This document shows, one piece after another, positions 6,772-11,026 of a stretch of DNA of 54,652 bases. The stretch is from an uncultured Pelagibacteraceae bacterium. GTDB taxonomy: Bacteria; Pseudomonadota; Alphaproteobacteria; Pelagibacterales; Pelagibacteraceae. The position numbers were made by a program, and so were the translations under genes. Numbering within the stretch: position 1 is the stretch's first letter; each line of letters starts with the position of its first letter. The DNA lies in assembly GCA_902560855.1 (NCBI GenBank), contig CACENJ010000006.1:1-54652 (forward strand). The letters are read 5' to 3'. A model generated the notes under the pieces. It saw nothing but the letters and a program-made list of their open reading frames with translations. It had not been told where the DNA came from and made no database searches.

Positions 6772-7767
6772 ATGAATATTACAATTGTAGGAGCAACTGG
6801 TAATGTTGGAAGGAAAATCATAGAAGTTCTAGAAAAAAAAAATTTTCCTGTTGATAACTTGTATTTTGTTGCTTCTTCTAAAAGCGCAGGGTCAAAACTA
6901 AAATTTAAAGGAAAAGAAATTGAAGTTGAAAATTTAGAAACTTTTGATTTTTCAAAAGCCAAAATTACTTTTTTTTCAGCTGGAGGTAAAATTTCGGAAA
7001 AATATATTCCATTAGCTGCTAAATACTCGACAGTTATTGATAATTCAAGTCATTTTAGAATGGATCCTGGTGTTCCATTGATTGTTCCTCAGGTTAATTC
7101 AAAAGATCTAAAAAATATAAAAAAAAATATAATAGCAAACCCAAATTGTTCAACTGCTCAACTTGTTATTGTTTTAAAACCTTTACATGATTTATTTAAA
7201 ATAAAAAGAGTTGTTATTTCAACTTATCAATCTACATCAGGTGCTGGTAAAGCACCTATGGATGAGTTAGTTGAACAAACTAAATTATCTTTAGAAAATA
7301 AAAAAATTAATTCAAAAAATTTTACTAAACAGATTGCGTTTAATGCAATTCCTCATATTGATGTATTTGTAGATGAAGGATATACGAAAGAAGAAGTTAA
7401 AATGATTGCAGAAACAAAAAAAATTTTAGACAATAAAATAGAAATAACAGCAACTTGCGTTAGGATCCCAGTAATGGTTTCTCATTCTGAATCGCTAAAC
7501 ATTGAATTTGAAAAACCATTTACTTTAGAAAAAATTCGCGATGCTTTAGAAAATGCAGAAGGATGCAAAGTTATAGATGAGAGAAAAGATGGCGGATATA
7601 TAACTCCGATTGAAGCAGAAGGTAAAAATGAAACTTTCATTTCAAGAATTAGAATAGATAGTAGTAACAAAAATGCCATTAATCTTTGGTGTGTATCTGA
7701 TAATTTATTGAGAGGCGCGGCTTTAAATGCTGTAGAAATAGCGGAGGCTTTTTGTAATAATAGTTAA
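6772..7767 (+). CDS. asd: Aspartate-semialdehyde dehydrogenase
   Basis: Asd reduces aspartyl phosphate to aspartate semialdehyde with NADPH, feeding lysine/diaminopimelate, threonine and methionine synthesis. The protein has 331 residues. It shows the Rossmann motif IVGATGNVGRKI at the N-terminus, the catalytic Cys126 in NPNCSTAQ, the QSTSGAGK segment, and the late RIPVMVSHSES segment with the active-site His. The last base of asd is followed directly by the sdhC ATG, so it may share a transcript with the TCA genes. The assignment is secure. Confidence 0.97.
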   Translation: MNITIVGATGNVGRKIIEVLEKKNFPVDNLYFVASSKSAGSKLKFKGKEIEVENLETFDFSKAKITFFSAGGKISEKYIPLAAKYSTVIDNSSHFRMDPGVPLIVPQVNSKDLKNIKKNIIANPNCSTAQLVIVLKPLHDLFKIKRVVISTYQSTSGAGKAPMDELVEQTKLSLENKKINSKNFTKQIAFNAIPHIDVFVDEGYTKEEVKMIAETKKILDNKIEITATCVRIPVMVSHSESLNIEFEKPFTLEKIRDALENAEGCKVIDERKDGGYITPIEAEGKNETFISRIRIDSSNKNAINLWCVSDNLLRGAALNAVEIAEAFCNNS

Positions 7768-8151
7768 ATGGATAATAATAAACCTCTTTCTCCGCATATC
7801 CAAATTTATAGCTGGAATATTTCCTCATTAATTTCAATTTCTCATAGAATTACGGGTGTAATAAATATTTTTGTATTAACAATAATATGTTTTTGGATAG
7901 CTTCATTTTTACTTGGAAGTTCAAATTATGAATTTATTCAAAATATATTAAATTCCTTTTTTGGAAAATTTTTAATTATAGGAATAACTTGGACGTTTAG
8001 TTTTCAGATATTGAGCGAAGTAAGGCATTTATTTTGGGACCTTGGTTACGGATTTGAAATTAAGACATCAAATATCAGTGGTTTCATAGTAATTTTGGGT
8101 TCATTTATAATTACAATAATAATTTATATATTAGGAAGACAATTAATTTAA
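7768..8151 (+). CDS. sdhC: Succinate dehydrogenase cytochrome b556-type membrane anchor SdhC, lacking the heme-ligand histidine
   Basis: This 127-residue integral membrane subunit has three predicted transmembrane segments and anchors the SdhAB catalytic head for ubiquinone reduction. The N-terminal LSPHIQIYSW and the quinone-site motif SISHRITG (Ser23, Arg27) are conserved. The third conserved block normally reads His-x3-Gly-Ile-Arg-His-Leu-x-Trp-Asp. Here it is FQILSEVRHLFWDLGYGFE, so the heme b ligand His position is Gln80 and the Gly is Glu84. The nucleotides (cag ata ttg agc gaa) make the substitution unambiguous. The stop abuts the sdhD ATG. Confidence 0.95.
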   Translation: MDNNKPLSPHIQIYSWNISSLISISHRITGVINIFVLTIICFWIASFLLGSSNYEFIQNILNSFFGKFLIIGITWTFSFQILSEVRHLFWDLGYGFEIKTSNISGFIVILGSFIITIIIYILGRQLI

Positions 8152-8481
8152 ATGGTAACTGCAACAAAAAAATGGATTTTTCTCAAAATAAGCTCAGTTA
8201 TTTTAATTCCATTGATGCTATGGTTTATAGTAAATTTTGTTTCAATCTATGACAAAAACTTTGAGGAAATTTTAGTTTTTTTGACTAAAGAATCTTCTAA
8301 ATTGTTATTGTCTACTTTAATGATTGTAGCATTTTTTTTTTCAGCATTAAGTATAAGTGAAATATTTGAAGATTATGTGCATGATGAAAAAATAAAAAAT
8401 ATTTCTATAAAGCTGCTTTATTTATCTGCAATAATAATTCCTTTTTTAACTATCATTGTAATTTACAATTTAAATATATGA
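8152..8481 (+). CDS. sdhD: Succinate dehydrogenase membrane anchor SdhD, lacking the heme-ligand histidine
   Basis: This second membrane anchor has 109 residues and three hydrophobic segments. The quinone-site Asp-Tyr pair is kept in FEDYVHDEK (Asp74, Tyr75). In characterised two-anchor enzymes a heme b ligand His lies 11 residues before this Asp, in His-x3-Gly-x6-Asp-Tyr. Here that position is Phe63 within [16 protein letters not shown], and the Gly is Ser67. The only His in the protein is His77, after the Asp-Tyr. Placement between sdhC and sdhA makes the call secure despite the divergence. It overlaps sdhA by 4 bp. Confidence 0.93.
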
Positions 8482-10253
8482 GAAAATACAAAGTTATAGA
8501 ACATGAATATGATGTAGTTGTATTAGGAGCTGGCGGAGCGGGTTTAAGAGCCGCAGTTGGTCTTAGTGAAGCCGGATTAAAAACAGCTTGCTTATCAAAG
8601 GTTTTTCCTACTAGAAGTCATACTTCTGCAGCTCAAGGAGGTATTTCCGCTGCTCTCGGAAATATGGGAGAAGATGATTGGCGCTGGCACATGTATGATA
8701 CTGTAAAAGGATCAGATTGGCTAGGTGACCAAGATTGTATTGAATATTTATGCAAAGAAGCTCCAAGAGCTGTTTTAGAACTAGAAAGATATGGAGTTCC
8801 ATTTAGCAGAACAGAAGATGGTAAAATTTATCAAAGACCTTTTGGAGGAATGACTAAAAATTATGGCAATGAAACTGTTCAAAGAACTTGTGCGGCCGCA
8901 GATAGAACTGGTCATGCAATATTACATACTATGTATGGTCAGGCATTAAAGCATAATACGGAATTTTTTATTGAATACTTTGCTTTAGATTTATTAATGA
9001 AAGATGGAGAGTGCAAAGGTTTAATTGCTTGGAATTTAAATGATGGAACTATTCATAGATTTAGATCTCATATAACAATTATTGCAACTGGTGGATATGG
9101 AAAAACATATTACTCATCTACATCTGCTCATACTTGTACTGGTGATGGGAATGCTATGGTTTTAAGAGCTGGTTTACCTTTGCAAGATATGGAATTTGTT
9201 CAATTTCATCCAACAGGAATTTATGGTCATGGTACATTAATATCTGAAGGTGTTAGAGGTGAAGGAGGCTATTTATTAAATTCCAAAGGAGAAAGATTTA
9301 TGGAGCGATATGCTCCTAAGGCTAAGGATCTTGCATCTAGAGATGTGGTAAGTAGATCAATAGCAATTGAAATAAATGAAGGAAGAGGAGTTGGAAAAGA
9401 AAAAGATCATGTCCATCTTCATTTAGATCATTTAGATCCAGAAGTAATTGAGAAAAGACTTCCTGGAATTTCAGAATCTTCAAGATTATTTGCAGATGTT
9501 GATGTAACTAAGGAACCGATACCAGTGGTTCCTACTGTACATTATAATATGGGTGGCATTCCAACAAATTACAAAGCCGAAGTTTTAACAGTCAATGGAT
9601 CTGAGAAAGTTGTACCAGGACTGATGGCAATAGGTGAAGCAGCATGCGTTTCTGTTCATGGAGCAAACAGGTTGGGATCAAATTCATTAATTGATCTTGT
9701 AGTTTTTGGAAGAGCTGCAGCAAAAAGAGCTGCAGAACTGGTAAAATCAGGAACTCCACATGAGGAAATTTCAGATTCAGAAACTGACAAATGCCTAGAT
9801 AGATTTGAAAAGTTAAGAAATGGAAATGGAACTAATAGAACTGCCGATCTAAGATTAGCCATGCAAAGAACTATGCAGTCAAAATGTGCAGTATTTAGAA
9901 ATGAAAAAACTTTAAAAGAAGGAGTAGACGAAATAAGAAAATCTTATGAAGGAATGGATTCAATATCAGTAAAAGATAAATCTTTAATTTTTAATACTGA
10001 TTTAGTTGAAACTTTAGAATTTGATAACTTGATAAGACAAGCAATAGTTACAATAGACTCTGCATATGAAAGAAAAGAAAGTAGAGGAGCTCACGCAAGA
10101 GAAGATCATCCTAAAAGAGATGATAATAACTTTATGAAACATACATTATCTTGGTGTAATGGTAGTAAAACAAAAATTTCTTATAGAGATGTACATAGAT
10201 CAACATTAACAAATGATGTACAATATTTTCCACCTCAAGAAAGGGTTTATTAA
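8478..10253 (+). CDS. sdhA: Succinate dehydrogenase flavoprotein subunit
   Basis: SdhA oxidises succinate to fumarate on a covalently bound FAD. The 591 residues include the dinucleotide fold [17 protein letters not shown]. The FAD-attachment site is [12 protein letters not shown], with His48 as the predicted flavin-linked residue. The active-site segments [10 protein letters not shown] and [18 protein letters not shown] follow, and the C-terminus is the usual [18 protein letters not shown]. Length is normal. It overlaps sdhD by 4 bp and shares one base with sdhB, consistent with a translationally coupled sdhCDAB unit. Confidence 0.98.
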
Positions 10254-11026
10254 TGGTACAAATAAATTTACCCAAAAACTCAAAAGTACAAAAAGGAGAA
10301 TATTACAAGGACACAACTGGATCAAAGAATATTAGAAAGGTTAATATTTATAGATGGGATCCTTCAAGCGGTAAAAATCCAAGAATAGATACCTATGAAG
10401 TTGATATGGACAATTGTCCTTCAAAAGTACTAGATCTGCTCAATAAAATTAAAAATGAAATAGATTCATCACTTGCTTATAGAAGATCTTGTTCTCACGG
10501 AGTTTGTGGTTCTTGCGCAATGAACATGGATGGCAAAAATGGATTAGCCTGTACAAAACCTCATTCAGAAATAAAAGGAGACATTAATATTTATCCTTTG
10601 CCTCATTTAAAAGTTGAAAAAGATTTAATTGGAGATTTAAGCACACTCTACAAACAATACCATTCCATTGAACCATGGTTAAAAAATTCTAAAAAAGATG
10701 ATGGAAAAGAAAATTTACAATCTACTGAGGATAGAGCAAAATTAGATGGCCTTTATGAGTGTATAATGTGTGCTTGTTGTTCTACAGCATGCCCAAGCTA
10801 TTGGTGGAATGGTGATAAATATCTTGGACCGGCTGTTTTATTGCAAGCTTATAGATGGATTATAGATAGTAGAGATGAAGAAAGAAAAAAAAGATTAAAG
10901 AAAGTTGCTGATGAGTTAAAACTTTATAGATGTCATACTATTATGAATTGTACAAATGCTTGTCCAAAAGGCTTGAATCCTGCAAAAGCTATTGCATCTA
11001 TAAAGAAAATGCTTGCAACAAGTTAA
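10253..11026 (+). CDS. sdhB: Succinate dehydrogenase iron-sulfur subunit
   Basis: SdhB carries electrons from the flavin to quinone through three Fe-S clusters. In 257 residues all ligand groups are present: the [2Fe-2S] set [20 protein letters not shown], then [12 protein letters not shown] and [17 protein letters not shown] for the [4Fe-4S] and [3Fe-4S] clusters. The Trp after the second group ([12 protein letters not shown]) and the His in CHTIMNC correspond to quinone-site residues in the E. coli enzyme, so quinone reduction is probably intact. The ATG overlaps the sdhA stop by one base. Confidence 0.98.

Follow-up and report, generated by a model that had tools for sequence, protein, structure and literature searches.

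Membrane anchors of a Pelagibacter succinate dehydrogenase lack both heme b ligand histidines and probably work without the heme

The function of heme b in complex II has long been a puzzle: although the cofactor lies outside the electron route, most mitochondrial-type enzymes retain it. An engineered heme-free variant of Escherichia coli SdhCDAB was reportedly described by Tran and colleagues in 2007. According to PMC3290573, the E. coli heme is off the electron path and stabilises the isolated enzyme, and an engineered heme-free variant showed significant activity, lower rates and growth on succinate; E. coli Sdh deprived of its heme did not become a high-ROS producer (PMC5210497). Heme-free complex II is already known from yeast, Tetrahymena, Perkinsus and the E. 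coli fumarate reductase. PMC13066397 reports a 2026 cryo-EM structure of complex II from yeast (Saccharomyces cerevisiae) with no heme, in which the stand-ins for the heme include His156(Sdh3)-Tyr108(Sdh4) and Arg97(Sdh3)-Glu112(Sdh4); the SdhD-type ligand position holds a Tyr, and Glu112 is found four residues after the lost ligand position. The same source states that the Perkinsus complex II is also heme-free, and the complex II of Tetrahymena is most likely of type D according to its authors (PMC10227065).

The DNA analysed here (the window, 54,652 nucleotides from an uncultured Pelagibacteraceae bacterium) carries genes for all four subunits of a succinate dehydrogenase (SDH; Table 1). 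The sdhC product matches TIGR02970 with 120.2 bits (cut-off 52.3) and the sdhD product matches TIGR02968 with 46.2 bits (cut-off 41.8), and both anchors also score above the PF01127 cut-off, identifying them as anchors of the Sdh_cyt kind. Identity as a fumarate reductase was unsupported: at E-values up to 0.001 the anchors match SDH anchor models and Sdh_cyt only, and SdhA scores 957.4 bits against TIGR01816 versus 529.1 bits against the fumarate reductase model TIGR01176. One sdhCD pair was found in the window's genome (75% complete, 40 contigs) using the Pfam anchor model, which gave two matches each in two genomes of the same genus with 99% completeness (G003 and G005). A semialdehyde dehydrogenase gene (6772-7767) abuts the sdhC start without a gap, and the sdhC end adjoins the sdhD start directly in the same frame, so that 6772-8481 is a gapless string of genes ahead of sdhA.

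The ligand register was set by alignment. A profile of 29 SdhD sequences puts the ligand column on the E. coli His located 11 residues before the Asp-Tyr pair (1nek_D), and alignment to avian SdhC sets Gln80 on the avian His. Codons and register agree with the original prediction, made from this stretch alone, that Gln80 of SdhC and Phe63 of SdhD occupy the heme b ligand positions, and the neighbouring changes it named, Glu84 in SdhC (GAA) and Ser67 in SdhD (AGT), are confirmed at the residues four after each ligand (+4; in E. coli SdhC, presumably Gly88). The quinone-site residues that it described as kept are all present, the site comprising SdhC Ser23 and Arg27, SdhD Asp74 and Tyr75, and SdhB Trp184/185 and His228, assigned from the usual list of ubiquinone-site residues.

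Table 1 Features of the sdh locus in the window (positions of the window, strand and remarks)
Feature	Position	Strand	Remarks
sdhC, cytochrome b556-type anchor	7768..8151	+	127 aa; intact ORF; heme ligand lost
sdhD, membrane anchor	8152..8481	+	109 aa; intact ORF; heme ligand lost
sdhA, flavoprotein subunit	8478..10253	+	591 aa; 4-base overlap with sdhD end; TIGR01816 957.4 bits (cut-off 727.35)
sdhB, iron-sulfur subunit	10253..11026	+	257 aa; quinone-site Trp184/185 and His228 present
SdhC Gln80, codon CAG	8005..8007	+	heme ligand position, equivalent to E. coli SdhC His84; Gln in 109/109 Pelagibacter genomes
SdhC Glu84, codon GAA	8017..8019	+	ligand +4; Gly in ligand-bearing relatives; Glu in 134/134 genomes of g1, g5 and g6
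SdhD Lys12, codon AAA	8185..8187	+	equivalent to E. coli SdhD Arg20; putative pairing with SdhC Glu84
SdhD Phe63, codon TTT	8338..8340	+	heme ligand position, equivalent to E. coli SdhD His71
SdhD Ser67, codon AGT	8350..8352	+	ligand +4; Gly in ligand-bearing relatives; Ser, Thr or Asn in 134/134 genomes of g1, g5 and g6

The ligand and +4 positions were scored at 350 loci, with at least one anchor obtained from 349. For SAR11, 348 of the 397 genomes of the order were matched and 162 of these were scored, with priority given to those most similar to the window and the rest taken by genus and from the lower scores. SdhC has Gln80 and Glu84 in all 109 genomes of Pelagibacter (genus g1, including that of the window). 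At SdhD 63, the same genomes have Phe (77), Tyr (26), His (5) or Asn (1), His being absent in 104/109, and at SdhD 67 they have Ser (95), Thr (13) or Asn (1). Genus g5 has His/Phe as its ligand residues (SdhC/SdhD) with Glu/Thr at +4 in 19/19 genomes, and the six genomes of g6 divide into two with His/Phe and four with Gln/Phe, all with Glu/Thr at +4. The 13 genomes of g2, g3 and g4, which belong to the same family, have His/His ligands with Gly/Gly at +4, and in the single g7 genome Gly/Ser occurs alongside His/His. Of the five g11 genomes, from the other SAR11 family (f2), four have His/His with Gly/Gly, the SdhD of the fifth (L062) being unreadable; the eight genomes of g10 and g12 have Tyr/His, with Cys or Ser at the SdhC +4 position and Gly at that of SdhD, and the single g13 genome has Asn/His with Asp/Gly, such that the SdhC ligand alone is lost in 9/14 genomes of this family. 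Gly/Gly accompanies His/His at 17/17 such loci of g2, g3, g4 and g11. A set of 80 organism-titled loci, which overlaps the scored genomes, gave Gln80 in 73 and Glu84 in all 80; the remaining seven have His80, always together with an SdhD Phe, and SdhD was unreadable in two of the 80 (L255 and L296).

Three further positions were observed to vary with these groups. SdhD Met22 (8215-8217) is Met in 98% of Pelagibacter and 100% of g5 genomes and is variable in ligand-bearing relatives, SdhC Trp120 has become Tyr in most of the group with ligand loss, and SdhD position 11 is occupied by His in 8/9 of the f2 genomes from g10, g12 and g13 (L096-L104), compared with mostly Gln in His/His relatives.

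Outside SAR11, 289 alphaproteobacterial genomes were searched and 249 matched, four of which were SAR11; 108 of the other 245 were scored, comprising 30 best-scoring, 30 lower-scoring, eight of 1.4-1.8 Mb and 40 mid-list genomes, which is not a random draw. His/His was found at 101 of the 108 loci, with Gly/Gly at +4 in 99 of the 101, and the remainder consisted of three Tyr/His, one His/Tyr, one Tyr/Val (L229, unreliable with an SdhD match of 10 bits), one locus without the SdhC ligand stretch (L227) and one without a pair found by the profiles (L232). The alignment across SAR11 and other alphaproteobacteria that the original prediction proposed as its check thus returned a clade-wide ligand loss in Pelagibacter and His/His in 101/108 others. 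Loci of three families, f72, f96 and f118 (L224, L225, L231, L383 and L384), combine an SdhC Tyr with SdhD His-x3-Glu and keep SdhC Arg27. This pattern was seen in f72, the one genome of its order in the set, in 3/3 f96 genomes from two genera (SdhC +4 residues Glu, Glu and Gly), and in 1/25 matching f118 genomes, the other 24 having His/His and Gly/Gly. A switch within one genus was seen in g133, with His/His and Gly/Gly in one genome and His/Tyr and Gly/Ser in the other (L107 and L203).

Judged by their sequences, the f72, f96 and f118 loci possibly encode further heme-free SDHs with the Glu on the side where yeast has it, and the occurrence of this version in three other families makes heme loss look recurrent. 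It is about an even call that heme b was lost several times from alphaproteobacterial SDHs and often by one design, in which the +4 Gly becomes a Glu that would reach the basic residue of the other anchor at the old propionate site; Pelagibacter, g5 and g6 would then represent the SdhC-side version and f72, f96 and f118 the SdhD-side version as in yeast, and one of the ocean's commonest respiratory complexes would be heme-free. Alphaproteobacteria are the class that gave rise to mitochondria.

The original prediction had argued against random drift on the grounds that both ligands changed together. This argument fails, as all 19 g5 genomes and 2/6 g6 genomes keep the SdhC His with an SdhD Phe, from which it follows that loss was stepwise with the SdhD ligand and SdhC Gly84 changing first; the loss itself is firmer than it was from one genome, due to the clade-wide data. 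A quick tree was built from part of SdhA (390 columns, with 98 rows selected out of 223), which is independent of the anchors. It grouped g1, g5, g6 and g7 apart from g2, g3 and g4 (SH-aLRT 99), placed the His/His g7 genome inside the group with ligand loss at an unresolved fork, and split g5. Forcing g1, g5 and g6 together gave a likelihood 10.64 units above that of the unconstrained search, and neither this tree (p-AU 0.726) nor a single clade of all rows with SdhC Gln (p-AU 0.288) was rejected. A minimum of five changes at the SdhC ligand and 11 at that of SdhD is needed on the SdhA tree. In the simplest history, SdhD lost His63 as SdhC Gly84 became Glu and SdhD Gly67 became Thr or Ser, and SdhC His80 then became Gln; the tests leave the branching loose, such that this last step may have occurred once or more. 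Family f2 represents a separate loss of the SdhC ligand alone.

The two anchors span 236 positions, of which 46 show conservation (<1 bit) among His/His relatives; a switch in Pelagibacter is seen at 12 of the 46 (SdhC 11, 36, 80, 83, 84, 90 and 120; SdhD 11, 12, 15, 63 and 67). The 11 anchor residues named at the heme or its propionates in E. coli in the available part of PMC3290573, together with the two ligands, gave a heme-site set of 13, nine of which are among the 46. Six of these nine switch (SdhC 80 and 83; SdhD 11, 12, 15 and 63; P 0.005), as do 4/7 when the two ligands are removed (P 0.037). When SdhD 12 and 15 are discounted as switches, the same residues being present in the His/His genus g11 (5/5), P is 0.087, and adding the two +4 glycines, a post hoc choice, gives P 0.0002, a value given no weight here. 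SdhC His26, Arg27 and His87, which are near the propionates in E. coli, are unswitched in Pelagibacter. Clustering of switches at the heme site modestly supports the reading that heme was lost; the signs that come close to perfect are the ligands and both +4 residues.

The replaced residues are encoded by both synonymous codons across the 109 Pelagibacter genomes (Gln80, 89 CAA and 20 CAG; Glu84, 68 GAA and 41 GAG). Median dN/dS in Pelagibacter was 0.25 for sdhC and 0.33 for sdhD (NG86, pairs with 0.1<dS<1), compared to 0.11 (eight pairs only) and 0.31 (32 pairs) in the His/His genera g2, g3 and g4; NG86 is rough on AT-rich genes, and the values for other alphaproteobacteria, 0.50 and 0.60, are not trusted. 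Neither gene is decaying and both are under purifying selection, with some relaxation possible in sdhC given its higher value in Pelagibacter than in the His/His SAR11 genera.

We infer that the locus most probably encodes a working two-anchor succinate:ubiquinone oxidoreductase whose anchors no longer bind heme b and make direct contacts in its place. A quinone-reducing complex II without heme b, as the original prediction proposed from the residues, is the best reading of the sequences. Electrons would pass from succinate to FAD, through the three Fe-S clusters of SdhB, and to ubiquinone at the site formed by SdhB, SdhC and SdhD; the heme of E. coli is off this route, so its loss can be tolerated. 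The cross-linking of SdhC and SdhD by the heme would pass to direct protein contacts, in which the most likely partner of SdhC Glu84 is the basic residue 12 of SdhD, where a propionate used to be, and the porphyrin space would be filled by Gln80, Phe or Tyr at SdhD 63 and the bulkier residues that replaced the two glycines. Among the 134 genomes of g1, g5 and g6, all of which have Glu84, SdhD residue 12 is Lys in 126, Arg in seven and a gap in one (basic in 133/134). It is also basic in 99/101 His/His alphaproteobacterial loci, and its presence in Pelagibacter is therefore not proof by itself. The pseudo-twofold axis of the heme makes E. coli SdhD Arg20 the equivalent of SdhC Arg31 (PMC3290573); with the Glu on SdhC in Pelagibacter, this equivalence makes SdhD residue 12 the symmetric partner, a mirror image of yeast, and the Glu84-Lys12 contact is a prediction by this analogy. 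When the two anchors were joined and modelled with AlphaFold2 (pTM 0.71, mean pLDDT 77.6), the model matched complex II anchors in Foldseek, with probability 1.00 in the first 11 rows and weak E-values (best 0.023). The construct is strained because the SdhC end that we take to be periplasmic is joined to what is presumably the cytoplasmic end of SdhD.

Why the heme was lost is a separate matter from its absence. Neutral loss, in which electron flow did not depend on heme, the ligands drifted and the pocket was then repacked, stands at roughly even odds as the cause: change was stepwise, SdhD 63 wanders among Phe, Tyr, His and Asn, and in E. coli the enzyme without heme supports growth on succinate (PMC3290573) and is not high-ROS (PMC5210497). 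Against drift alone, none of the 109 genomes departs from Gln80 or Glu84 although both synonymous codons occur at each, and the replacement therefore now looks selected. This alternative concerns the cause and leaves heme absence as it is. SAR11 bacteria, Pelagibacter among them, are marine and highly abundant. Iron saving in an iron-poor surface ocean, which the original prediction suggested, is possible as an adaptive cause but unlikely. The organism-titled loci are from Pelagibacter and Pelagibacteraceae, and PMC4771312 found uptake of neither heme nor siderophores in its surveyed SAR11 genomes, but the saving would be about one of 10 Fe per complex (nine being in the three Fe-S clusters as listed in PMC3290573), and similar changes occur in families f72, f96 and f118. 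Furthermore, ferrochelatase and cytochrome b are kept in 6/6 SAR11 genomes searched, including that of the window, so heme is probably made and used elsewhere in these cells.

It is unlikely that the complex binds heme b after all, perhaps weakly, via SdhC His26 or His87, SdhD Met22 or water. E. coli axial-ligand mutants can reportedly retain heme, going by the title of a 2001 paper by Maklashina and colleagues, so ligand loss alone is no proof of heme loss, in g5 above all, and SdhD His63 in 5/109 Pelagibacter genomes is counter-evidence to a heme-free complex. SdhC His26 and His87 are conserved across g1, g5 and g6 (133/134 and 134/134), and SdhD Met22 is newly fixed. However, both SdhC histidines are equally common in His/His relatives, Met22 is 10 residues past Lys12 on the same helix and by this register would be deeper than an axial ligand, and neither +4 glycine is left, that of SdhC having given way to Glu in 134/134 genomes. 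The pair SdhC His87 and SdhD His77, which the original prediction had given as an example of ligands that would overturn it, can be rejected. His77 is the one His in the window's SdhD and is not conserved in the genus, Lys, Glu and Gln being commonest there in Pelagibacter, and His87 is likewise His in 94/101 His/His alphaproteobacterial loci; its E. coli equivalent, His91, belongs to the propionate network (PMC3290573). A sequencing, assembly or pseudogene artefact, which the incompleteness of the window's genome (75%, 40 contigs) might suggest, can be dismissed, as the SdhC residues recur in 109/109 genomes of the genus and in the titled loci (Gln80 73/80, Glu84 80/80), the ORFs are intact, and the comparative data across the genus refute a single-genome error.

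No earlier report of heme-ligand loss in SAR11 or Pelagibacter SDH was found among the open-access titles and abstract starts listed, with subscription papers and preprints outside this search, and succinate was unmentioned in term-searched papers on metals in SAR11. The living intermediates His/His, His/Phe and Gln/Phe provide a natural series for measuring the role of the heme in stability, kinetics and radical formation, and a Glu at ligand +4 is suggested as a simple sequence sign for spotting heme-free SDHs.

Compared with the classes of complex II, Pelagibacter has the SDH anchors and ubiquinone site of type C (two anchors, one bis-ligated heme b) and lacks the ligand that type C has in each anchor; the type D feature, no heme ligands in two anchors, is present and tells the mode of working rather than descent. 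Pelagibacter is a candidate for a yeast-like, heme-free subdivision of type C in which a Glu-basic contact between the anchors takes over from a propionate, with Glu84 in 134/134 and a basic SdhD residue 12 in 133/134 genomes of g1, g5 and g6. E. coli FrdABCD (type D) has two anchors and no heme, but is a fumarate reductase, whereas Pelagibacter scores as an SDH (PMC10238741). E. coli SdhCDAB shares the gene order sdhCDAB and the subunit families with Pelagibacter (PMC3290573), and its heme-free variant is engineered and less active, whereas the Pelagibacter form is natural and fixed with further changes at the site. The Tetrahymena thermophila complex II is a naturally occurring SDH that has two core anchors and lacks heme b, as proposed here for Pelagibacter, but is very divergent, with many extra subunits and cardiolipin in the place of the heme (PMC10227065). 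Yeast and Pelagibacter have in common two anchors, a quinone site, a lost ligand position, a Glu at +4 and extra phenylalanines in the core (PMC13066397), and yeast Sdh3 Arg97 fits SdhC Arg27 as judged by alignment ends only (query 4-116 to chain 74-197). They differ in that yeast retains the His of SdhC type and carries its Glu on the SdhD side, whereas Pelagibacter lacks both ligand histidines and carries the Glu on SdhC, and Pelagibacter Phe63 cannot form the Tyr-His bond of yeast. The yeast Glu bonds a basic residue of the other anchor at the old propionate site, for which the Pelagibacter counterpart is a predicted one, and the absence of heme that is seen in the yeast map is deduced in Pelagibacter from sequence.
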